From an uncultured Luminiphilus sp. (lineage in GTDB: Bacteria; Pseudomonadota; Gammaproteobacteria; Pseudomonadales; Halieaceae): 64,000 nucleotides of DNA. The stretch is from NCBI GenBank assembly GCA_905182485.1, contig CAJJBO010000015.1, positions 1-64,000 on the forward strand. Direction: 5' to 3'. Positions within the stretch are counted from its first letter, which is position 1. Every line of letters starts with the position of its first letter. This document shows positions 37,932 to 64,000 of the stretch, piece by piece. The translations under genes and the position numbers were made by a program. The notes under the pieces were generated by a model. The model was not told the DNA's origin, ran no database searches, and saw only the letters and a program-made list of their open reading frames with translations.

Positions 37932-40707
37932 GTGACTATGGACAAGAATTTTTCACCCGCTGACATCGAGGGACGATGGTATGACTATTGGGAGGCCAAT
38001 GGTTACTTTGCACCATCGGGCGAAGGGCCCGCGTTTTGCATCCCCATCCCTCCCCCTAATGTCACCGGCACGCTCCACATGGGGCATGGTTTTCAACAGG
38101 CCATCATGGACGCATTGGTGCGTTATCAACGAATGCGAGGCCACAACACGCTGTGGCAGGTGGGCACGGATCACGCTGGCATCGCCACGCAAATGGTGGT
38201 CGAGCGACAGCTAGAATCAGAGGGCTCCTCCCGTGAAGCACTGGGCAGGGAAGCCTTTATTGAACGGGTATGGGACTGGAAGGCAGAATCGGGCGGAGCC
38301 ATCACGCAACAGTTAAGGCGTTTGGGCACGTCACCGGACTGGAGCCGCGAACGCTTCACGATGGACCCAGGGCTATCACAAGCGGTTCAGCGCGTTTTTA
38401 TCACGCTATTTGAAGAGGGGCTCATTTACCGGGGGCATCGGCTCGTCAACTGGGACCCCACTTTTCACACTGCCATTTCTGATCTTGAGGTTGTGCAAGA
38501 GGAAGAGGCGGGCTCTTTGTGGCACCTGCGATATCCGCTGCAGGGCCGAGACGGGCACCTGGTGGTGGCAACCACTCGCCCGGAGACCATGCTGGGCGAC
38601 GACGGCGGTGCATGAAGCCCGAACAGGCAAACATGTCTTTGGACACGCTATGGAAGCTGCGCTAAAGCCACAGGTTTTAGATCGCTTTGGACATCATTGC
38701 TGACGACTATGTTGATAGCTGAGTTCGGCTCAGGCTGCGTCAAGATCACACCGGCACACGACTTCAATGATTATGCGATGGGAGAGCGTCATCAGCTCCC
38801 AAAAATTAATATCCTCACCGCCAACGCGGCGATCAACGATGCGGCACCAGAGCGGTTCAGGGGCATGGATCGCTTTGATGCGAGAAAGGCGGTCGTTGCT
38901 GAGTTCGAGGCACTGGGGCTACTCGAAAAAATTGAGCCCCACACCCTCAAAGTGCCACGAGGCGATCGCTCGGGCGCCGTCATAGAGCCTTGGCTGACGC
39001 CACAGTGGTATGTCGATGCCAAAAAACTTGCTGTTCCCGCTATCGAAGCTGTCGAACAGGGCGCGATTCAATTCGTACCCAAGCAATGGGAAAACACCTA
39101 CTTCTCATGGATGCGCGATATCCAAGACTGGTGTATCAGCCGCCAGCTGTGGTGGGGACATCGCATACCGGCATGGTATGACGAGGCAGACAACATCTAT
39201 GTGGGTGACTCTGAAGCGGCGGTGCGCGTTAAACATCAACTGCCAGACACCATGATCCTACGACAAGATGACGACGTGCTCGATACTTGGTTTTCCTCTG
39301 CACTATGGACGTTTTCTACCCTTGGCTGGCCAGACAACACCGATGACCTCAAGACGTATTTACCTTCTTCAGTGCTTGTTACCGGCTTTGACATTATTTT
39401 CTTTTGGGTCGCGCGGATGATCATGATGTCGCTACATTTTATGAAGGAAGTACCCTTCGACACGGTATATATTCACGGCTTAGTGCGTGACTTTGAAGGG
39501 CAGAAAATGTCTAAATCGAAGGGAATGTATTAGACCCAATCGATCTGATCGACGGCATATCCCTTGACGCGTTGCTGGCGAAGCGCACTGCCAACCTCAT
39601 GCAGCCGCAGTTAGCCGCTAAAATTGATAAAACCACACGTAAGCAATTTCCAGATGGCATCTTGGGCTACGGCACCGACGCACTGCGCTATGCGTTTTAT
39701 TCATTGGCCTCAACGGGAAGAGATATCAAATTTGATATCGGGCGAATAGAGGGCTATCGCAATTTCTGTAACAAGATCTGGAATGCGTCCCGTTACGTCT
39801 TAAGCCATGCTGAAGGTCATGATCTGCTATCTGAAAGAGGCGAAGACTCACTAGCGGACCGCTGGATCAAAAGCCGCATGGAGTCCACCCTCCAAGAGGT
39901 CGATCGCGCCTATGCTCAGTATCGATTTGACCTAGCATCACAAGCGCTATACGACTTTGTGTGGAATGAATTTTGCGACTGGTACCTCGAACTCTCCAAA
40001 CCCGTACTTTGGGATGAGGATACCAACGCGATGGCGGCACTGGGACACGACAGACACTCATCACGGTACTGGAGCAATCGCTTCGTATGCTGCACCCCTT
40101 TATGCCCTACTTAACCGAAGAGGTTTGGCAGAGCGTCAGCCCGTTCGCCGGCACGCAGGGTGACAGCATTATGCTGGCCCCCTGGCCAACTTACAGCGCG
40201 GAGCAGATCGACGAGGAGTCAGAGAGTGAAATTGAGTGGCTGAAGAAAATAATTATTGCGATCCGCACGATTCGTGCGGAAGCCAACATCCCACCATCAA
40301 CTGAACTGACCGTATTAGTAAGCCACGCATCCGAACAAGACAAAGCGCGCCTGACACGAAATGCAGCTTACCTCGCTAAATTGGCCAAGGTCAGCCAGCT
40401 GACCGCCCTATCACCCGACGCAGAACCCCCTCCCAGCCTAATGGCGCTGTGTGGAGAGCTTGAAATTCGTGTGCCCATGGCAGGGGTCATTGATATCGAG
40501 CAGGAGCTGGTGCGGCTAGACAAAGAGATCACCAAGCACGAGTCTGAACTCGCTCGACTCGAGGGAAAGCTCAACAATAAGGCCTTTGTCGAACGAGCTC
40601 CCGCCGAAGTCGTGGTCGCAGAGCGTCAAAAGCAAGAGCAAGCCGCGGCGTCGATTGCCACACTGAGACGACAAAGATCGCAAATAGAGGTATTGCGTTC
40701 CGCCTAA
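37932..40707 (+). CDS. valS: Valyl-tRNA synthetase with several indels
   Basis: [55 protein letters not shown](N)[16 protein letters not shown]; four collinear ORF fragments. Confidence 0.96.
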
Positions 40708-44953: not shown

Positions 44954-47703
44954 ATGACCGATATGTTTATTCCCGGACAACGATGGGTCAGTCACGCCGA
45001 TAGCACGCTTGGACTAGGGATTGTCACCACCGCCGATACCCGGCGCGTCACACTGCATTTTCCAGCTGTTGAAGAGGAGCGCGTCTACGCGACTGACCGC
45101 GCACCTTTGACCCGGCTGCTATTGAAAACCGGCGATCAATTGATCCGCATGGACGGCGCCTCACTCGTCGTGGTGACGCGCAGAACAGCACGCAGGAATC
45201 ATGGTTTATGCCGCAGAGAATGAGCAGGGTGAGCTCTGCCAGGTCAACGAGGCTGAGCTTGATGCCCATATCGAACTCAACACACCAGTTGAGCGACTAC
45301 TGAACAGTCAGCTGGGCAAGCCTGCCGACTTTGGACTGCGACAAACAACACTAGATCATAATGCCTCAGCTGATGGGTTCGGGCTACGCGGTTTACTGGG
45401 TGCTCGTACCACCCTCCTCTCCCACCAGCTGTACGTCGCTGCCACCGTTGGCGCCCGATTTGCACCAAGAGTCCTACTGGCTGATGAAGTCGGGTTAGGT
45501 AAAACGATTGAAGCTGGCCTCATCGTCAGTCAGCAACTGTTGCGTCAACGCGCGCAGCGCGTGCTCATTCTCACGCCCGAAACGCTGACACATCAATGGC
45601 TCATCGAGATGCAAAGGCGCTTCCACTTGTCCTTCTCGCTATTAAATGCGGCACGACTCGAAGACACCGATCCCAGTGAGGAATTCTCTGAATCCCCTCT
45701 GGTGCTATCGCCCATCAATCTTTTTGAGTCTGACCCAGCGCTTCAGGAGTGTGTTCGGCAAGTGGAATGGGACATGGTTGTGATTGATGAAGCCCACCAC
45801 ATCACCGGCCTGAATCACCCTCGCTCGAGTCTGGGCGAGTTTGTCCATACGCTCTCTCAGCACACCCGAGGGCTTCTGCTATTAACCGCCACGCCCGAGC
45901 AGGCAGGCCTTTTTTTCCATTTTGAACGGCTACAACTCTTCTTGATGTAAAAGATCTATAAGCCTAATTACAGAAAAGAGCAAACTCAGTTTACTGCTTG
46001 GAACCACGCGATCGAGCAGCTCGAACACGGGCTGCCCTGTGATCTTCCCGCCGACATCGACACCAATGCCAATTCCGCAGACCAGATCCAACAGATGTTA
46101 GATCGATACGGCACAGGCAGAGTGCTCTATCGTAATACGCGCCAAGGCATTTCTGGCTTTCCCAATCGGCACCATCAATGCTACCCGCTGGCGGCGCCTG
46201 AACTTTATGTCAGCGACGCAAACCAGCTTCATCCGGAGACGCTGCACCCCGAAGCACATTGGATTGAAGCAGACCCCCGAGTCACTTGGCTTCAAGAGCA
46301 ATTGAAGCAACTGCGGCCCCATAAGGCGCTCGTGATTTGTGCTGACAAGCACACGGCCATGGGTCTTGAGCATCATCTTCACCTCAAAGCGGGCGTCCGA
46401 TGCGCCGCCTTTCATGAAGACCTCAGCCTAATAGAGCGTGATCGAGCGGCAGCCTACTTCGCCGAGGAATCAGGTGGTGCCCAAGCGCTTATCTGCTCTG
46501 AAATTGGCAGCGAGGGGAGAAACTTTCAGTTCGCCAAACACCTTATCTGCTTTGATCTACCGAGGCACCCCGACTTACTAGAACAACGTATCGGACGGCT
46601 CGACCGGATTGGTCAAGGCAGCGATATTTATTTACACCTGCCGATTCTGGAACATACCGCGCAAGCAGTGGTTTACCGCTGGCTGGATGAAGGCCTGAAC
46701 GCCTTCAATGCCACTTGCTCAGTGGGTCATCAGTTGTATTCCGAGTTTGCTGCCGCATTAGCTGCTGCAATGGAGGACGGTAGCGGGCTAGACGATCTGA
46801 TCGAGGCAACGCGTCAGCGGCGACAAGGCTTGCTCCAAGAGTCTGAAAAAGGCCGTGACCGGCTGCTGGAACGCAACTCCCACAACGCTGAGCGAGGTGC
46901 AGCCATAATCACTGCACTCGAACAACGAGAATCCGCGGAAACGTTGCACGCTTTTTGCGAGATGCTGTTTGATCGTATTGGCATTGATCAAGATTATCTC
47001 GACGAGCAATTGACGGTCGTCAAACCCACTGAAAATTTGGTCACCGGACAACTGCCTGGATTGGATGAAAATGGTGCCACAGCGACTTATGACCGGACTA
47101 CCGCATTAAGCCGCGATGACGTTATCTTTTTGACTTGGGAACACCCCATCGTCATGGAGTCGATGGCCACCTTGCTCAGCAGTGATATTGGGAAAGCCAG
47201 TATCGGTACTTTTAAGCACCGAGGCGTACCGGCGGGCACCGTACTCCTCGAAGCCCTTTACCGGGTCGAGTGCCTCGCACCGAGATATTTAGAGACGGGA
47301 CAATTTATCGATCAAACACCCTTGCGAATGCTGCTAACAGCAGAGGGCAAAGAAGTGGGCGACCGACTCTCATCGTCCTACCTCGCGGAGCATTTACAAA
47401 ACGTTCCCACAGCAACCAGCGCTGCAGCGCTCAGCAAACTCCGCCAAACACTTGAATCACTATTTCCTGTGCTTGATGCGGCAGCGGTCAAAACGGTCAT
47501 CGCTCGCCGCGAGCAGGCCGTTGCGCACGCTCAGCAAACACTCAATGCGGAATGGGACCGGTTGCAGTATCTGCAATCCGTCAACCCTACGATTCGAGAA
47601 GAAGAAGTGCTGGCCATGGCACAGCATACAAGACGCCTGTTGCGAGGCGCTCTCCCAAGCCCAGCCAGTGCTGGAGGGTTTGCGGGTCTGCATCGCGGTC
47701 TAA
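44954..47703 (+). CDS. rapA: RNA polymerase-associated SNF2-type helicase RapA, with several indels
   Basis: FIPGQRWVSHADSTLGLGIV; LLADEVGLGKTIEAGLIVSQQLL; IDEAHH; SEIGSEGRNFQFAKHLICFDLPRHPDLLEQRIGRLDRIGQ; C-terminus QAQPVLEGLRVCIAV*. Confidence 0.94.
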
Positions 47704-47724
47704 GCTGCGATGCCAATTATCAGC

Positions 47725-49600
47725 TTACTCAGGGGACGGCTGGTACCAGATTGGCGAGGTGTACGCACGTTCCTGTATCGTATCAGGCCTGCGGGTATCG
47801 ACATCACCGCCCAAAGCGAGGGCATCGAGCAGTGAGTGCCTTGCAGTCGGTATCTGTAACACACGGACATAGTAGAAAGCCGATTGCAGCGGATCAAAAA
47901 TCGGATCACGCCAGACCACTCGCAAGCTAGGCGCCCCAATGCTATTGGCCGTCAGCCCGGTCTGTAGATCAACCGTTGTGCCAACCGGCAGCAACTCGCC
48001 CTCGTCATCCAGTCGGGCATCACCGCCTGACCAGGCCACATCAACGACCTGCTCTTGTGTCTCGCCTGCGTCATCAAGCCAACCCTTGACCACCTGCACG
48101 CGGTCAAGATAAGCGCCCCGCGGATCCGCTGAGGCCTCAATCATCAGGGTGAATTGATCACCTGACTGGGCCCCCTGTATTTCGCCCCCCATCGGCACAG
48201 CGTCAGCGGCGAGATTATCGGGGAAAGACGCTTGATCAAAACCAGACGCCGCCAAATTCAAACCTGCAAACGTGCGCACCGCAATTCTTGGGCCACTCGT
48301 TGCATACACCTCACGCCGTCGCATCGCGGCCACAATGGCTTCACGAGTATTATCGGTCGCCCAGACCGCCGCAAGACCCGAGGCACTCATTCCCCAGCCA
48401 AACGTCCCACGGGCATCCTCAGACCATCCTCCGGCTTTTCGCGAGGGAATCGAATCGGTTGCCATTTTGCCGTGAAAATTATCTTCCTCTGCCGAGGGCA
48501 GTGCCGTGTGGGCATCGGTAGAGCCAATGACGCCGAACTGATAGGGGTTAAAACCGATTTTTGCGTCCAACTCTAGGCCCACTTTTAAGGCACTGCGAAC
48601 ATAGTCGCCCCGCTGTGGAACATAGTCTGTCCACTCACGCTGAATGTAATAAGGGTAACGCTCGAAGTCTGCGAACGCGTCATCAGGCGCTAGCACTGGG
48701 TGCGTTTCTGAATCGCCCTTGATCTGGGTTATCTCAACAATCGGCTCCCAGTAGCGACGCACCTCAGCGTAATCGCGATCAATGGCCTCTCCGCGAAGGT
48801 CTCGCACATCGAACATTGACCCTTTCGAAATATTAGAGTTGTGCGGTACCGCAATAAAATCGCCGCCGGTAGCGCGGCTGGTCTCTTCTAACCAATCCCA
48901 AAGGTCGCTGGGGAAAGAACTATCATCAAAACCGAAAGGCGCAAAGGTTTGCGCCTGCTCTGCTGTAATATCCGAAATCACCACGCGGTGAAGATTAGCG
49001 CCTCCCGGAATCAAAGAATATTCCCAGCCGATCAGCGCAGTAAAAACGCCCGGGTCATTGTGCCGCTCCGCAGCATCAGTGATCAATTTCCACGTGTCGA
49101 CCTCAACCGTCGGCTGCCGAGGCACCAACCCGCTGACCCGGTCTTCCTCCCAGCCCAACATCGCTTCCACCGCATTTTCTGCCGGTTTTGGCAACACGGT
49201 GGTAAACAACTCTCGACCGGTATCGTTATCTACTGCGTCACGTAATAAATACTGAACGATTCGCGTCCAAATGCGCTCCTTCCAACTCAACCCCTCTGTG
49301 ATCATCGGGTTCAAGTACAAGCTTCTGATGACCCCTAAATACTCGGCGTGGTCTGAGACCACTAGAAAGTCGAGCGGCGTGCCAATTTGGCGTAGCTTCC
49401 GGAACTTGCGATGTTTCCGTAGGCGATATTCATCATTTGGTTGAAGGCCGTGAGGTTGCCATTGGTAGCGACGGAAGAATTTACCGTGTCGTAGTCGTCC
49501 CATTTCCGCTCCTGCGCCTGCGCAAAGTCGGCATGCCCGCATCGTAAGCATAGCCACCCCAGCCGATTCTGAGTAAGAAGAGGCTCACCACTGAGGCCAT
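47725..49600 (-). CDS. DUF3604 family protein; N-terminal PHP-like region scrambled by indels
   Basis: PLDFLVVSDHAEYLGVIRSLYLNP...GVIGSTDAHTALPSAEEDNFHGK...REVYATSGPRIAVRTFAG. Confidence 0.85.
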
Positions 49601-59169: not shown

Positions 59170-59969
59170 ATGGTAGTGACCAGCGACAGCGAATCTGGCC
59201 TCGATATCAGGCGCCTCTGCCGCACAGGGGACTTCGTCGAGCCCACGTCAGGGCGTGCGCCTGGGTACGTCCAGTGCAACGTCGTGATGATGCCCGCCGA
59301 TTCAGCACACCACTTTCTGGGCTTCTGCGAGCACAATCCTCGTCCCTGCCCGCTGCTCGCAATGAGCGAGGCGCCCGGCTCTGTCGCGCTAACGGCTTTG
59401 GCAGCGGACATCGATATACGCACTGACCTCCCTCAGTATCGAATCTGGCAAGACGGCATGCTCACTGAACGCTGTGACAACGTGACGCACGTCTGGGAAG
59501 ATGACTGGATCGCTTTTGCGCTTGGCTGTTCCTTTTCGTTTGAAGAGGCACTCATCGGTGCAGGCATAGCCGTTCGCAATATCATTGAGGGAGTCAACGT
59601 CCCGATGTATCGCACTAATATCCCCTGTACACCAGCTGGCCCCTTTGCGGGCAATATGGTGGTCAGCATGCGTCCCATGCCAGCGGCCGACGCCATTGAA
59701 GCGATTCAAATTTGTGCTCGCTTTCCATCTGTTCATGGCGCGCCCATCCATATCGGGGACCCTGGCCACCTCGGCATTGATGATCTCGGCCGCCCTGATT
59801 TTGGCGACCCCGTCACCCTGCACTCCACCGATATGCCGGTATTTTGGGCCTGCGGTGTCACGCCTCAGGTGGCTGTTGAAAATGCTAAACCCGCCTTGCG
59901 ATCACCCACGAACCCGGCCACATGCTTGTGACCGATCTTAAAAACACCGACTTGGCGATATCACGATGA
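59170..59969 (+). CDS. DUF1445 family protein (putative hydro-lyase / D-glutamate cyclase N-domain homologue), indel near 59897
   Basis: SGRAPGYVQCNVVMMPADSAHHFLGFCEHNPRPCPLLAMSE; IEGVNVPMYRTNIPCTPAGPFAGNMVVSMRP; C-terminus AITHEPGHMLVTDLKN restored by one T. Confidence 0.88.
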
Positions 59970-60707
59970 AGGAACACTATAGATTTAAATTGTGATATGG
60001 GCGAAGGCTTTGGCCCCTGGAAGATGGGTAATGACGAAGGCATCATGCCCCTGATCGATGCGGCAAATATCGCCTGCGGCGGTCATGCGGGTGACCCCAG
60101 CACGATGCGTCAGTGCGTTGCGCTGGCGCGCAAGCACAACACCGAAATTGGCGCACATGTATCATACCCGGATAAAGAAGGTTTCGGGCGCAGAGCAATG
60201 GACATCCGCGGGCAAGCGCTCGTGGATTTGATTCACTATCAAGTGGGCGCACTGGACGGTATTGCACGCGCGCACAGTCGCCGCGTTACCTACATCAAAC
60301 CCCATGGTGCGCTGTATCACGCCATACTCGCTGACCCCAGCCTCATGAATGACATCATGCGCGCGGCCGCGAGTTGGCATGCCAACTTAGAGCTCGTAGT
60401 CCTCGCCACCCCGAGAGATCGTAAAACAGTCCAGCTCGCCGTAGAACACGGCCTCAACTTGCGCTACGAAGCGTTTGCTGACCGTGGCTATACGACCCGA
60501 GGGCTCCTTCTGAGCCGAGACAAGCCCGGTGCGGTGCTGACACCTGAGGAGGCGGCACAGCAAGCGATATCCATCACTCACAACAAACTAAAAACATCTA
60601 GGGGAAAACGCATACCCGTCAGTGCCGACACGTTGTGCGTTCACAGTGATTCACCGGGCGCAGTGAAGATGATCCGCGCCATTCGACAGGCCCTGGATCA
60701 ATCGTAA
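59966..60707 (+). CDS. pxpA: 5-oxoprolinase subunit A (LamB/YcsF family), indel near 59978
   Basis: IDLNCDMGEGFGPWKMGNDEGIMPLIDAANIACGGHAGDP; YIKPHGALYH; ATG 59966 overlaps upstream TGA. Confidence 0.92.
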
Positions 60708-61403
60708 ATGGCATTTACCATCGGACCAGCCGGCGACACGGCGATGCGCCTGAGTTTTCAGGAACCGCCCAGCCCTCGTCTGACTCGATTATTGCTGCAG
60801 CTGCAGCGCACTGCGCAGGACTATTTTTTTAACGCACTCAGTGACAGCGTCGTGGGCTATGCCACCCTCACACTATTTTTTACCCCACTCAGCTTGCAAC
60901 GTGACCAGGTAGCTGCCTGGCTGGAAAAGACAGTCCGCTCGCTGAGCGACTCGCAAGAGACCCAGGCTGCGCACAGCAAAGAGACCGTGGTGCTCCCGGT
61001 TTTTTATGATCCAGCTGTAGCACCCGACCTAGTGACTTTGGCCGACGACCTAGGCATGACCATTGACACACTGACCACCTTGCACAGCGCAACGCCTTAC
61101 TTCGCTTACGCGACTGGATTTGCTCCCGGATTTTGCTACCTCGGCACACTGGATCCACGCCTAAAAACACCGCGACTGAGCACGCCTCGGCAGCGTGTAC
61201 CCGCCGGCGCGGTCGCCATCGCAGATCAACAAACGGCCGTTTACCCCTGTGAGTCGCCCGGTGGGTGGCGAATCATTGGCGCGTGCCCGGTCACGCTGTT
61301 TGATCTTGCCGCCACGCCCTTTAGCACGCTGGCTGTGGGGGATTCAGTGCGCTTTGAGGCCATCGATGAGCAAACCTACCGCTCGCTAGGGGGGCAACTG
61401 TGA
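60708..61403 (+). CDS. pxpB: 5-oxoprolinase subunit B (KipI/allophanate hydrolase subunit 1)
   Basis: YATGFAPGFCYLGTLDPRLKTPRLSTPRQRVPAGAVAIADQQTAVYPCESPGGWRIIGACPVTLFD. Confidence 0.93.
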   Translation: MAFTIGPAGDTAMRLSFQEPPSPRLTRLLLQLQRTAQDYFFNALSDSVVGYATLTLFFTPLSLQRDQVAAWLEKTVRSLSDSQETQAAHSKETVVLPVFYDPAVAPDLVTLADDLGMTIDTLTTLHSATPYFAYATGFAPGFCYLGTLDPRLKTPRLSTPRQRVPAGAVAIADQQTAVYPCESPGGWRIIGACPVTLFDLAATPFSTLAVGDSVRFEAIDEQTYRSLGGQL

Positions 61404-62332
61404 GAACGCTGACCCTCGACAAAGCGGGCCTCGCCTCCACCATACAAGACGGTGGTCGACTCGGCATCCTGCACGCCGGCATTGCCGCCGCAGGCGCTAT
61501 GGATCCTCTCGCATTGAAGGCTGGACAGCATTGCCTCGGACATCATGCTGGAGAGGCGGCTATCGAGATCGCTTATGGCAATGTCAGGGCAACGCCGTCC
61601 CACGACTGCGCCCTGGTGGTCACGGGCGCACCCGCGATGCTACTGATTGATAACGAGTCTGTGCCTATGAGGTCCATACAGACACTCAGCGCCGGTCAGA
61701 CACTGACTATCGGCCCGCCGTCAGAGGGCATCTACAGTTACCTCCACGTCTCAGGAGGCTTTAATACTCACCCCATTTTTAACAGTCGGAGTACCTCTCC
61801 AAGAGAGGGCATCGGCGGATTACATGGCGGTTACCTTCGAGATCAAGACACAGTCCCTCTGGGCGACGGCGCACCACCCATCGACACTTGCGGCGCGGAC
61901 CCGGGTCTGTGCAGCATCGAACAACGAGACGTTTTGACGCTTCGCTACGTACCGGGCTACCAATACGATGAGCTTGCCCCTGCGCTCATTCAAAGGCTTA
62001 ACGGGGACCACTTTGAGGTGACCTCGAAAGCCAATCGAATGGGGGTTACCCTCAATGGCCCTCCGTTGAAGACCGGTGTAGAGTCATTACTGTCAGAGGC
62101 AACCTGCCAGGGCGCCATTCAAATTCCACCCGACGGAAACCCTATCGTCCTCATGAAAGATCGACAAACAATGGGTGGCTATCCCATTCCCGGCGCCGTC
62201 ATTGAGAGCGACTGTGTGCGCCTTGCTCAAGCACGGCCAGGACAGAAAATTCGTTTCGCCGCTTGCACTCCGCAGGAAGCCGACAATATCAGGTGGCTAG
62301 AACACCATTATGTTGAGACGCGACTGCGATGA
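61400..62332 (+). CDS. pxpC: 5-oxoprolinase subunit C (KipA / biotin-dependent carboxyltransferase-like)
   Basis: GLASTIQDGGRLGILHAGIAAAGAMDPLALKAG; YLHVSGGF; NRMGVTLNGP; PIVLMKDRQTMGGYP. Confidence 0.93.
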   Translation: MRTLTLDKAGLASTIQDGGRLGILHAGIAAAGAMDPLALKAGQHCLGHHAGEAAIEIAYGNVRATPSHDCALVVTGAPAMLLIDNESVPMRSIQTLSAGQTLTIGPPSEGIYSYLHVSGGFNTHPIFNSRSTSPREGIGGLHGGYLRDQDTVPLGDGAPPIDTCGADPGLCSIEQRDVLTLRYVPGYQYDELAPALIQRLNGDHFEVTSKANRMGVTLNGPPLKTGVESLLSEATCQGAIQIPPDGNPIVLMKDRQTMGGYPIPGAVIESDCVRLAQARPGQKIRFAACTPQEADNIRWLEHHYVETRLR

Positions 62333-63183
62333 GAAATCAAGCCACCCTCACTGTTTCAGAAACGCTTGAAACGCTTTTGGTAGCCCATAATCACCGGGGC
62401 ATGCGGGATGTGCGAGCAACGCTAGAGCCTGGCTACTTGCTGCGCGCTGCGGACATGATTCGCGGCTGCACGGGGCGAGCTTATATCCTAACGGGCTTCC
62501 CTGTAGCCGGCACATTTGAGACAGACGGACCGGCTGGCGCAATGGCGTTATACCAACTTTTACTGCAACGCGGCGCTCAGCCGACGATCCTATCCGACCG
62601 ACCCATTACCCATGCTTTATCGAAAGACTTCCTGTGTACTGAACTCGCTACCGGCACCCGTGGCGAAATTGCTGACGCGGTCTCTTTGCTGTATCAGCAG
62701 GCCCCACCTGACCTAGTGATAAGCATCGAACGCCCAGGGACCGCGGCGGACGGTCACTGTTACAATATGGCAGGCGACGCTATATCAGCGGCTTGCAGCT
62801 CGGCCGAGCCCTACCTTGAGCTCGCCACCTGCCCTACGATTGCGATAGGAGATGGCGGCAACGAGTTAGGCATGGGCAAAGCCCAAGCAGCCCTCACCTC
62901 ACTCAATATCAGGGCGGCGATTAGCGATTGTGATGAATTAATTGTGGCAGACGTGTCGAATTGGGCTGCCTATACTCTCTATGCCCTTGTTCAGTGGTTA
63001 GATAACAACCCGCACGATCTAACGCTCGATATTCAACAGGCGTTGGCCTACCTCGTTGCTGTTGGCGCGGTAGATGGTGTCACGGGGCTGCCCACCCCAA
63101 CCGAAGACGGATTTCCTGCCAACGCCGGCCCCGACCTGCTAGCAGAAGCCAACACCATTCTGACTAGGACGGCAGCGGCATGA
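62329..63183 (+). CDS. DUF4392 family protein (D-glutamate cyclase C-domain homologue)
   Basis: AYILTGFPVAGTFETDGPAGAMALYQLLLQRGAQPTILSDRP; IERPGTAADGHCYNMAGDAIS; IAIGDGGNELGMGK. Confidence 0.85.
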   Translation: MRNQATLTVSETLETLLVAHNHRGMRDVRATLEPGYLLRAADMIRGCTGRAYILTGFPVAGTFETDGPAGAMALYQLLLQRGAQPTILSDRPITHALSKDFLCTELATGTRGEIADAVSLLYQQAPPDLVISIERPGTAADGHCYNMAGDAISAACSSAEPYLELATCPTIAIGDGGNELGMGKAQAALTSLNIRAAISDCDELIVADVSNWAAYTLYALVQWLDNNPHDLTLDIQQALAYLVAVGAVDGVTGLPTPTEDGFPANAGPDLLAEANTILTRTAAA

Positions 63184-64000
63184 CCATTGCTTATCTCAAC
63201 GGCGACTTTGTCCCACTGACCGAGGCCCGCATCTCGCCCATGGACAGAGGCTTCTTATTCGGCGATGGCGTCTATGAAGTCATTCCCAGTTATGAAGGCC
63301 AGTTTGTGGCGCTGGATTATCATCTGGAGCGATTAAGAAACTCCCTTGAGGGCATTGATCTGGCCATCAACCAGTCCAACGAGCAACTGGTCGCCTTGCT
63401 TGACGAACTGTGCCGACAAAATGGTGGCGGTGATCAAGGGGTGTACCTTCAAATCACACGAGGAGTCGTAGAAAAACGACAGCATGCCTTTTCCGCAGAG
63501 AGTACCCCAACAATATTCGCCTACCCTTTTCCGATCGCGTCACCATCAGACGGCTCACCTGCTAATGCAACATGCTTTACTGCGGTAACCCGAACCGATA
63601 AACGATGGGCGCGCTGTGATATTAAGTCGACTGCGCTCCTTGGTAACGTGCTGCATATGATGGAGGCCGTTGATGACGGGGCTCAGGAAGTCCTGTTGTT
63701 CAACGAACGCGACGAGCTCACTGAAGCTGCAGCCTGTAACGTGTTTATTGTCGACGCGGGTAAAATACTCACGCCAGCACTCGATCATCACATTTTACCC
63801 GGTGTGACGCGTCGCCTCTGTCTCGACCTCTTGGCGGCACACACCAACTGGAGCGTCGAAATTCGACCTGTCACGCGTGCGGAAGTCCACAGCGCCGAAG
63901 AAATCTGGCTCAGCTCGTCGACCAAGGAGCTGGCTCCAGTGATTCAGATCGATGGTCAGCCAGTGGGGTTTGGCCAGCCCGGTCCACTGTGGTCTCAGGC
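63180..64000 (+). CDS. dat: D-amino-acid aminotransferase (class IV PLP), partial at window end
   Basis: Translated by hand: MTIAYLNGDFVPLTEARISPMDRGFLFGDGVYEVIPSYEG...RCDIKSTALLGNVLHMMEAVDDGAQEVLLFNERDELTEAAACNVFIV; ATGA overlap with the DUF4392 gene; absent from ORF track (runs off edge). Confidence 0.88.
   Translation, partial: MTIAYLNGDFVPLTEARISPMDRGFLFGDGVYEVIPSYEGQFVALDYHLERLRNSLEGIDLAINQSNEQLVALLDELCRQNGGGDQGVYLQITRGVVEKRQHAFSAESTPTIFAYPFPIASPSDGSPANATCFTAVTRTDKRWARCDIKSTALLGNVLHMMEAVDDGAQEVLLFNERDELTEAAACNVFIVDAGKILTPALDHHILPGVTRRLCLDLLAAHTNWSVEIRPVTRAEVHSAEEIWLSSSTKELAPVIQIDGQPVGFGQPGPLWSQ

Follow-up and report, generated by a model that had tools for sequence, protein, structure and literature searches.

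A conserved operon of marine Halieaceae that probably joins a cell-wall D-glutamate supply route to homologues of the two domains of mammalian D-glutamate cyclase

How does a Gram-negative bacterium that appears to have no glutamate racemase MurI obtain the D-glutamate of its peptidoglycan, and why would the aminotransferase that could supply it be encoded together with relatives of the N- and C-terminal halves of a mammalian enzyme, D-glutamate cyclase? These questions are raised by a stretch of 64,000 nucleotides (the window), positions 1 to 64,000 of contig CAJJBO010000015.1 from an uncultured Luminiphilus sp. of the Halieaceae (family f1 of our searches); the contig itself extends to 80,614 bp. 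At the right-hand end of the window lies an operon that couples two domains of the cyclase type (DUF1445 and DUF4392) and a 5-oxoprolinase (PxpABC) to a D-amino-acid aminotransferase (Dat) and an alanine racemase (Alr). We argue from its sequence and its distribution among relatives that dat and alr very probably constitute the biosynthetic supply of cell-wall D-glutamate and D-alanine, and, with moderate confidence, that the operon as a whole supplies D-amino acids and carries its own drain for a surplus. Its genes are the following.

59170..59970, + strand: DUF1445 gene (PF07286, D-Glu_cyclase; Pfam 194.5 bits, NF003969 351.9 bits)
59967..60707, + strand: pxpA, 5-oxoprolinase subunit A, LamB/YcsF (PF03746; Pfam 281.3 bits)
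60708..61403, + strand: pxpB, 5-oxoprolinase subunit B (PF02682, 206 bits)
61400..62332, + strand: pxpC, 5-oxoprolinase subunit C (PF02626, 248.3 bits), with a GTG start
62329..63183, + strand: DUF4392 gene (PF14336, D-glutamate cyclase-like C-terminal domain; Pfam 198.3 bits)
63180..64000 and on to contig position 64037, + strand: dat, D-amino-acid aminotransferase (PF01063, class IV aminotransferase)
contig 64040-65107, outside the window: alr, alanine racemase (TIGR00492), starting 2 nucleotides after dat
next after alr, outside the window: a ppx-like gene

All six families in the window score far over their Pfam cut-offs and are consecutive on the + strand, as an earlier note on this DNA had proposed, and the alr product reaches 312 bits against a TIGR00492 cut-off of 168. 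The TAA of pxpA directly abuts the ATG of pxpB at 60708, a GTGA overlap joins pxpB to pxpC at 61400, and ATGA overlaps join pxpC to DUF4392 at 62329 and DUF4392 to dat at 63180; the coupling of the genes argued for by that note is thus borne out at four junctions. A fifth, which it had placed at about 59966, is right for the lineage, where intact relatives have an ATGA overlap, but is broken in this copy. Its six-gene operon consists of real genes but was drawn too short, for the genes just past 64000, which it had suggested looking at, proved to be alr and then the ppx-like gene.

The closest relatives of the dat product in the PDB are D-amino-acid aminotransferases, and the motifs GDGVYEV, KRQH (KR-x-H) and RCDIKS are kept when it is aligned with 3daa; they match what we take to be the hallmark residues of the family, Y31, R98, H100 and K145 in the numbering of the Bacillus enzyme. 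The protein lies below the cut-offs of its two best NCBIfam families, TIGR01121 (225 bits against 277.45) and NF005209 (238.8 against 320). A glutamate racemase and Dat are the two usual sources of D-glutamate (PMC8788868), the racemase being that of most Gram-negative bacteria (e.g. PMC5885031), and in Staphylococcus aureus D-glutamate auxotrophy requires the removal of both dat and murI (PMC5458566). Not one of the 61 Halieaceae genomes, among them the single-contig genomes G006, G031 and G053, has a MurI over the cut-off; the few weak matches align with a portion of the model and probably represent other Asp/Glu/hydantoin racemases. A close Dat is found in most of these 61 genomes, and those in which it was not found are mostly incomplete. 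Halieaceae genomes that have an Alr have one above the cut-off (the match is cut by a contig end in G008 and G060), and wherever the locus was inspected this copy is the one behind dat.

MurI and Dat are complementary across the order as well: of 215 genomes, 131 carry just MurI, 51 carry just Dat, 25 carry the two together and 8 carry neither (Fisher odds ratio 0.03, p=5e-22). A Dat needed an E-value of 1e-36 or lower to enter this count, and twelve weak matches to MurI, judged to be other proteins, were left out of it. Because relatedness inflates the p-value, contrasts within families matter more: in f31 four operon genomes without MurI stand against three MurI genomes without the operon, in f205 one operon genome without MurI stands against five with MurI and no Dat, and f207 and f212 run mostly in the same direction. 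In f206, neither MurI nor Dat was found in five of seven genomes (G326, G362, G391, G443 and G486; 97-100% complete); these bacteria must have another route to D-glutamate, such as MurL, DapF or some other racemase, none of which the searches covered. MurD2/MurL of Xanthomonas and the moonlighting DapF of Chlamydia likewise solve the problem of a missing MurI, with enzymes different from Dat and Alr. It is the absence of MurI, the single-copy Alr and the MurI/Dat complementarity that lead us to assign dat-alr to cell-wall supply. As in S. aureus, where dat exists alongside murI (PMC5458566), D-alanine and 2-oxoglutarate would give D-glutamate in place of the MurI reaction; the difference is that in the Gram-negative Halieaceae this is apparently the sole route, encoded in an operon with alr and a cyclase/oxoprolinase cassette.

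The earlier note had read the operon in the opposite sense, as a salvage pathway in which environmental or recycled D-amino acids pass through Dat to D-glutamate, then to 5-oxoproline and finally to L-glutamate as a source of carbon and nitrogen. All the enzymes that such a pathway needs are indeed encoded together, and the direction of the aminotransferase, D-alanine to D-glutamate, is identical in both readings and stands. As the main role, salvage nonetheless seems improbable to us. Dat and Alr are the sole sources of D-glutamate and D-alanine found in genomes without MurI, the dat-alr pair remains where the other five genes are missing, the conserved block has neither a transporter nor a D-amino-acid dehydrogenase, and the L and D forms do not match at PxpABC, which, as the earlier note itself had pointed out, would need to take the D isomer unless an isomerase acts. 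The operon core is most likely biosynthetic, because MurI is absent, the Alr of the operon is the only copy and dat-alr persists alone.

What, then, do the other five genes do? The gene order is far beyond chance, because dat adjoins DUF4392 in 28 of 29 loci of relatives (the remaining locus ends at a contig edge) and lies downstream of it within the stretch in 22 of 23 newly fetched order-level loci containing DUF4392. The order DUF1445-pxpA-pxpB-pxpC-DUF4392-dat-alr is kept in Luminiphilus, in three other Halieaceae genera and in families f2, f10 and f32, and, variants included, the arrangement is shared by some ten families of the order other than Halieaceae; conservation of the neighbourhood, which the earlier note had named as a test, is thereby found from Luminiphilus outwards. 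In most Halieaceae loci ppx follows or is near. The closest named loci belong to uncultured Luminiphilus and Halieaceae metagenome assemblies, from which we take the order surveyed to be the Pseudomonadales of GTDB, and a single-protein scan of named genomes returned four very close relatives only. DUF4392 is present in 42 of 98 related genomes (the source genome counted) and over the cut-off in 29 of the 215 order-level genomes, all 29 of which also have Dat; a class-wide survey of 229 genomes gave no DUF4392 match except in the source genome.

The variants are of several kinds. The f4 locus is missing pxpBC; G424 has DUF1445-DUF4392-dat only, directly adjacent and with no pxp gene; a LysR-type regulator gene stands between DUF4392 and dat in G061 and G463 (identified by eye in G061); alr is missing from the locus in G436 and G463; and G070 retains pxpABC and dat-alr in the absence of both DUFs. 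Between pxpC and dat the last of these carries a gene of 193 amino acids that looks phosphoribosyltransferase-like (L057:7144-7725). Contig 8 of G058 encodes a second, distant DUF4392 protein of 335 amino acids (L048:6373-7380) that is not linked to dat and adjoins an apparent MFS-type transporter gene. In other families (L062 and L066; G094 and G074) Dat has a second genomic context, following a dacA-like gene (D-Ala-D-Ala carboxypeptidase), and in L062 it is itself followed by lipB/lipA-like genes.

A natural experiment within Luminiphilus separates the two parts of the operon. In eight Luminiphilus genomes, among them the single-contig G006 and G031, dat-alr-ppx comes immediately after acs; DUF1445, pxpABC and DUF4392 are all absent from this place, and neither DUF was found anywhere in these cassette-less genomes. 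The eight form one clade on the Dat tree (support 100/99), which amounts to one change; G070 is labelled there as having the block, though it is without both DUFs, and the clade is unaffected. Loss of the cassette in this subclade is the simpler reading, because the cassette occurs in other Halieaceae genera and in other families. Wherever the PxpA locus of a cassette-less genome was read, pxpABC is located elsewhere, with 24-40% identity to the operon copies (L099-L105, from G006, G031, G017, G054, G045, G008 and G028), behind a gene for an Nramp-type transporter in G006 and a similar-sized gene in the others. Each Halieaceae genome has one PxpA, whichever its type, and the operon copy is the only one found in the source genome. 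The five cassette genes therefore come and go together, with PxpABC function covered by another set, and D-glutamate production is independent of the cassette. The cassette itself was considered as the maker of D-glutamate and rejected, given a MurI-less subclade that does without it.

This distribution suggests that the operon PxpABC would do the ordinary housekeeping work of a 5-oxoprolinase, because there is a single PxpA and a different pxpABC takes its place where the cassette is missing. A second, D-specific PxpABC was also considered; that each genome has just one PxpA makes it unlikely. The three subunit genes are all present, adjacent and in order, and PxpA passes two NCBIfam subfamily models. 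The same three families occur in the same order in Bacillus subtilis (ycsF/kipI/kipA) and Corynebacterium glutamicum (pxpTABC); here, in contrast, PxpB and PxpC fall under their NCBIfam cut-offs and the genes are linked to DUF4392-dat-alr, not to a transporter. In B. subtilis a DUF1445 gene (ycsI) lies near ycsF/kipI/kipA as well.

These facts invite the idea that one transcript carries two independent functions, Alr and Dat serving the wall and PxpABC the repair of L-5-oxoproline, with DUF1445 and DUF4392 acting on glutamate-related damage products, so that the genes would share a glutamate theme and no linear pathway. The single PxpA of either type fits it, as do the diverged pxpABC of cassette-less genomes, which look like the answer to a housekeeping need, and the control genome of B. 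subtilis, which has DUF1445 but not DUF4392. We consider this idea unlikely, for no genome of the order sample was found to have DUF4392 in the absence of Dat, and the DUF1445-DUF4392-dat arrangement of G424 points to a link with D-glutamate. In our view the DUF genes and PxpABC form an accessory cassette, probably a drain or recovery arm for excess D-glutamate.

The nature of that drain is suggested by a mammalian enzyme. Mammalian DGLUCY (9030617O03Rik / C14orf159) combines DUF1445 and DUF4392, and the mouse protein converts D-glutamate to 5-oxo-D-proline and has no racemase activity (PMC5339696). Both domains are encoded here and conserved in relatives, DUF1445 being homologous to the N-terminal half of DGLUCY (its relatives in the PDB are 2pif and 3db9), and the link to the mammalian cyclase that the earlier note drew thus holds; the difference is that the operon has two separate genes, split by pxpABC and joined with Dat and Alr, and not one polypeptide. 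DUF4392 has PDB relatives 4dwz, 5gl2-5gl4 and 5gkx at about 1e-22, which include the solved structure of TON_0340 from Thermococcus onnurineus, and a predicted di-metal site at E64, D66, E134, D175, E179 and D260. In an alignment to TON_0340, its six acidic metal ligands are identical in the operon protein and invariant in 53 of 53 DUF4392 relatives.

The mechanism that we favour would run as follows. Alr would convert L-alanine to D-alanine, and Dat would transfer the amino group of D-alanine to 2-oxoglutarate, giving peptidoglycan D-glutamate by a route without MurI. DUF4392, as a predicted di-metal enzyme, would bind D-glutamate through its metals and cyclise any surplus to 5-oxo-D-proline, with DUF1445 either assisting it or acting on the product. 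PxpABC would use adenosine triphosphate (ATP) to open 5-oxoproline, the spontaneously formed L isomer and possibly also the D isomer, to glutamate. The 5-oxo-D-proline might be excreted, be opened by a PxpABC of relaxed specificity (giving D-glutamate back) or be epimerised to the L form; all the enzymatic steps, the drain role and this fate are what we infer. The MurI of Escherichia coli is under precursor control. If Dat is without such control, the drain makes sense as a means by which build-up of D-glutamate from an unregulated Dat would be prevented. A bolder version, quite unlikely in our estimate, would make the cassette an ATP-driven one-way converter of D-glutamate to L-glutamate, in which DUF4392 cyclises, DUF1445 epimerises 5-oxo-D-proline and PxpABC opens the ring; if true, it would provide MurI-less bacteria with an irreversible exit for D-glutamate, involve a new DUF1445 activity and fill in what is missing from the pathway around the mammalian enzyme.

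Several observations weigh against a supply operon with a drain. Many Dat-only genomes are without DUF4392, so that Dat needs no drain in general, and MurI is present alongside all or part of the operon in G061, G355, G364, G424 and G436 (f6 and f27 each contain one genome of this sort). PxpB lies just under its TIGR00370 cut-off (135.3 bits against 145.55) and PxpC well under that of NF045499 (203.8 against 500). If PxpABC did accept 5-oxo-D-proline, it would regenerate D-glutamate in a futile cycle. Our literature search, outside which subscription papers mostly lay, found no work on PxpABC with the D isomer and none that links a bacterial D-glutamate cyclase to Dat, and the cyclase role of the bacterial DUF1445 or DUF4392 is one that we infer by analogy. 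Finally TON_0340, a stand-alone archaeal protein, was reported as a probable weak manganese-dependent phosphatase of very low activity (PMC5132392). The operon DUF4392 might by this token be a small-molecule phosphatase, perhaps acting on a phosphorylated PxpABC intermediate, and the manganese-dependent activity of TON_0340 on adenosine monophosphate (kcat/KM 1.9e2 per M per s), which the substitutions E59Q and D157L abolish (PMC5132392), agrees with this, as does the conservation of all six ligands. That activity is very low, however, and spread across many compounds, and in mouse the protein that shares this domain acts as a D-glutamate cyclase; we regard a phosphatase as highly improbable.

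The broken junction between DUF1445 and pxpA calls for a separate explanation. The body of DUF1445 (59170-59931) is in one frame, which ends at 59931, and the canonical tail, AITHEPGHMLVTDLKNTDLAIS, continues in another to the TGA at 59968-59970; the ATG of pxpA at 59967 is shifted by one base against the reading frame of the pxpA body, TIDLNCDMGEGFGPW. In the close relatives G012 and G023 (protein identity about 97%), neither gene is broken and an ATGA overlap joins the two, and against them this copy has two opposite indels, the differences clustering in two short divergent patches. Elsewhere in the window valS (valyl-tRNA synthetase, 37932-40707), which is expected to be essential, is broken into four open reading frames by frame changes, and a rapA-like gene (45201-47930) lies in two, likely from the same cause. 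The DUF1445/pxpA breaks most likely stem from errors in sequencing or assembly, because the differences cluster and valS and rapA are broken too; a real recent lesion is less likely. The source genome is 69.6% complete. Downstream, an alkaline-phosphatase-like gene (L002:9905-11321, contig ~67904-69320) also appears by eye as two open reading frames, probably by a frame error.

A whole family of abundant marine Gammaproteobacteria thus appears to run without MurI, and its replacement pathway to D-glutamate is encoded together with relatives of the two halves of the mammalian cyclase, an enzyme that humans also have and whose part in the cell is little understood. The operon makes the roles of DUF1445 and DUF4392, and what becomes of 5-oxo-D-proline, directly accessible to genetic tests, and the Luminiphilus subclade that has kept dat-alr without the cassette provides a natural control.

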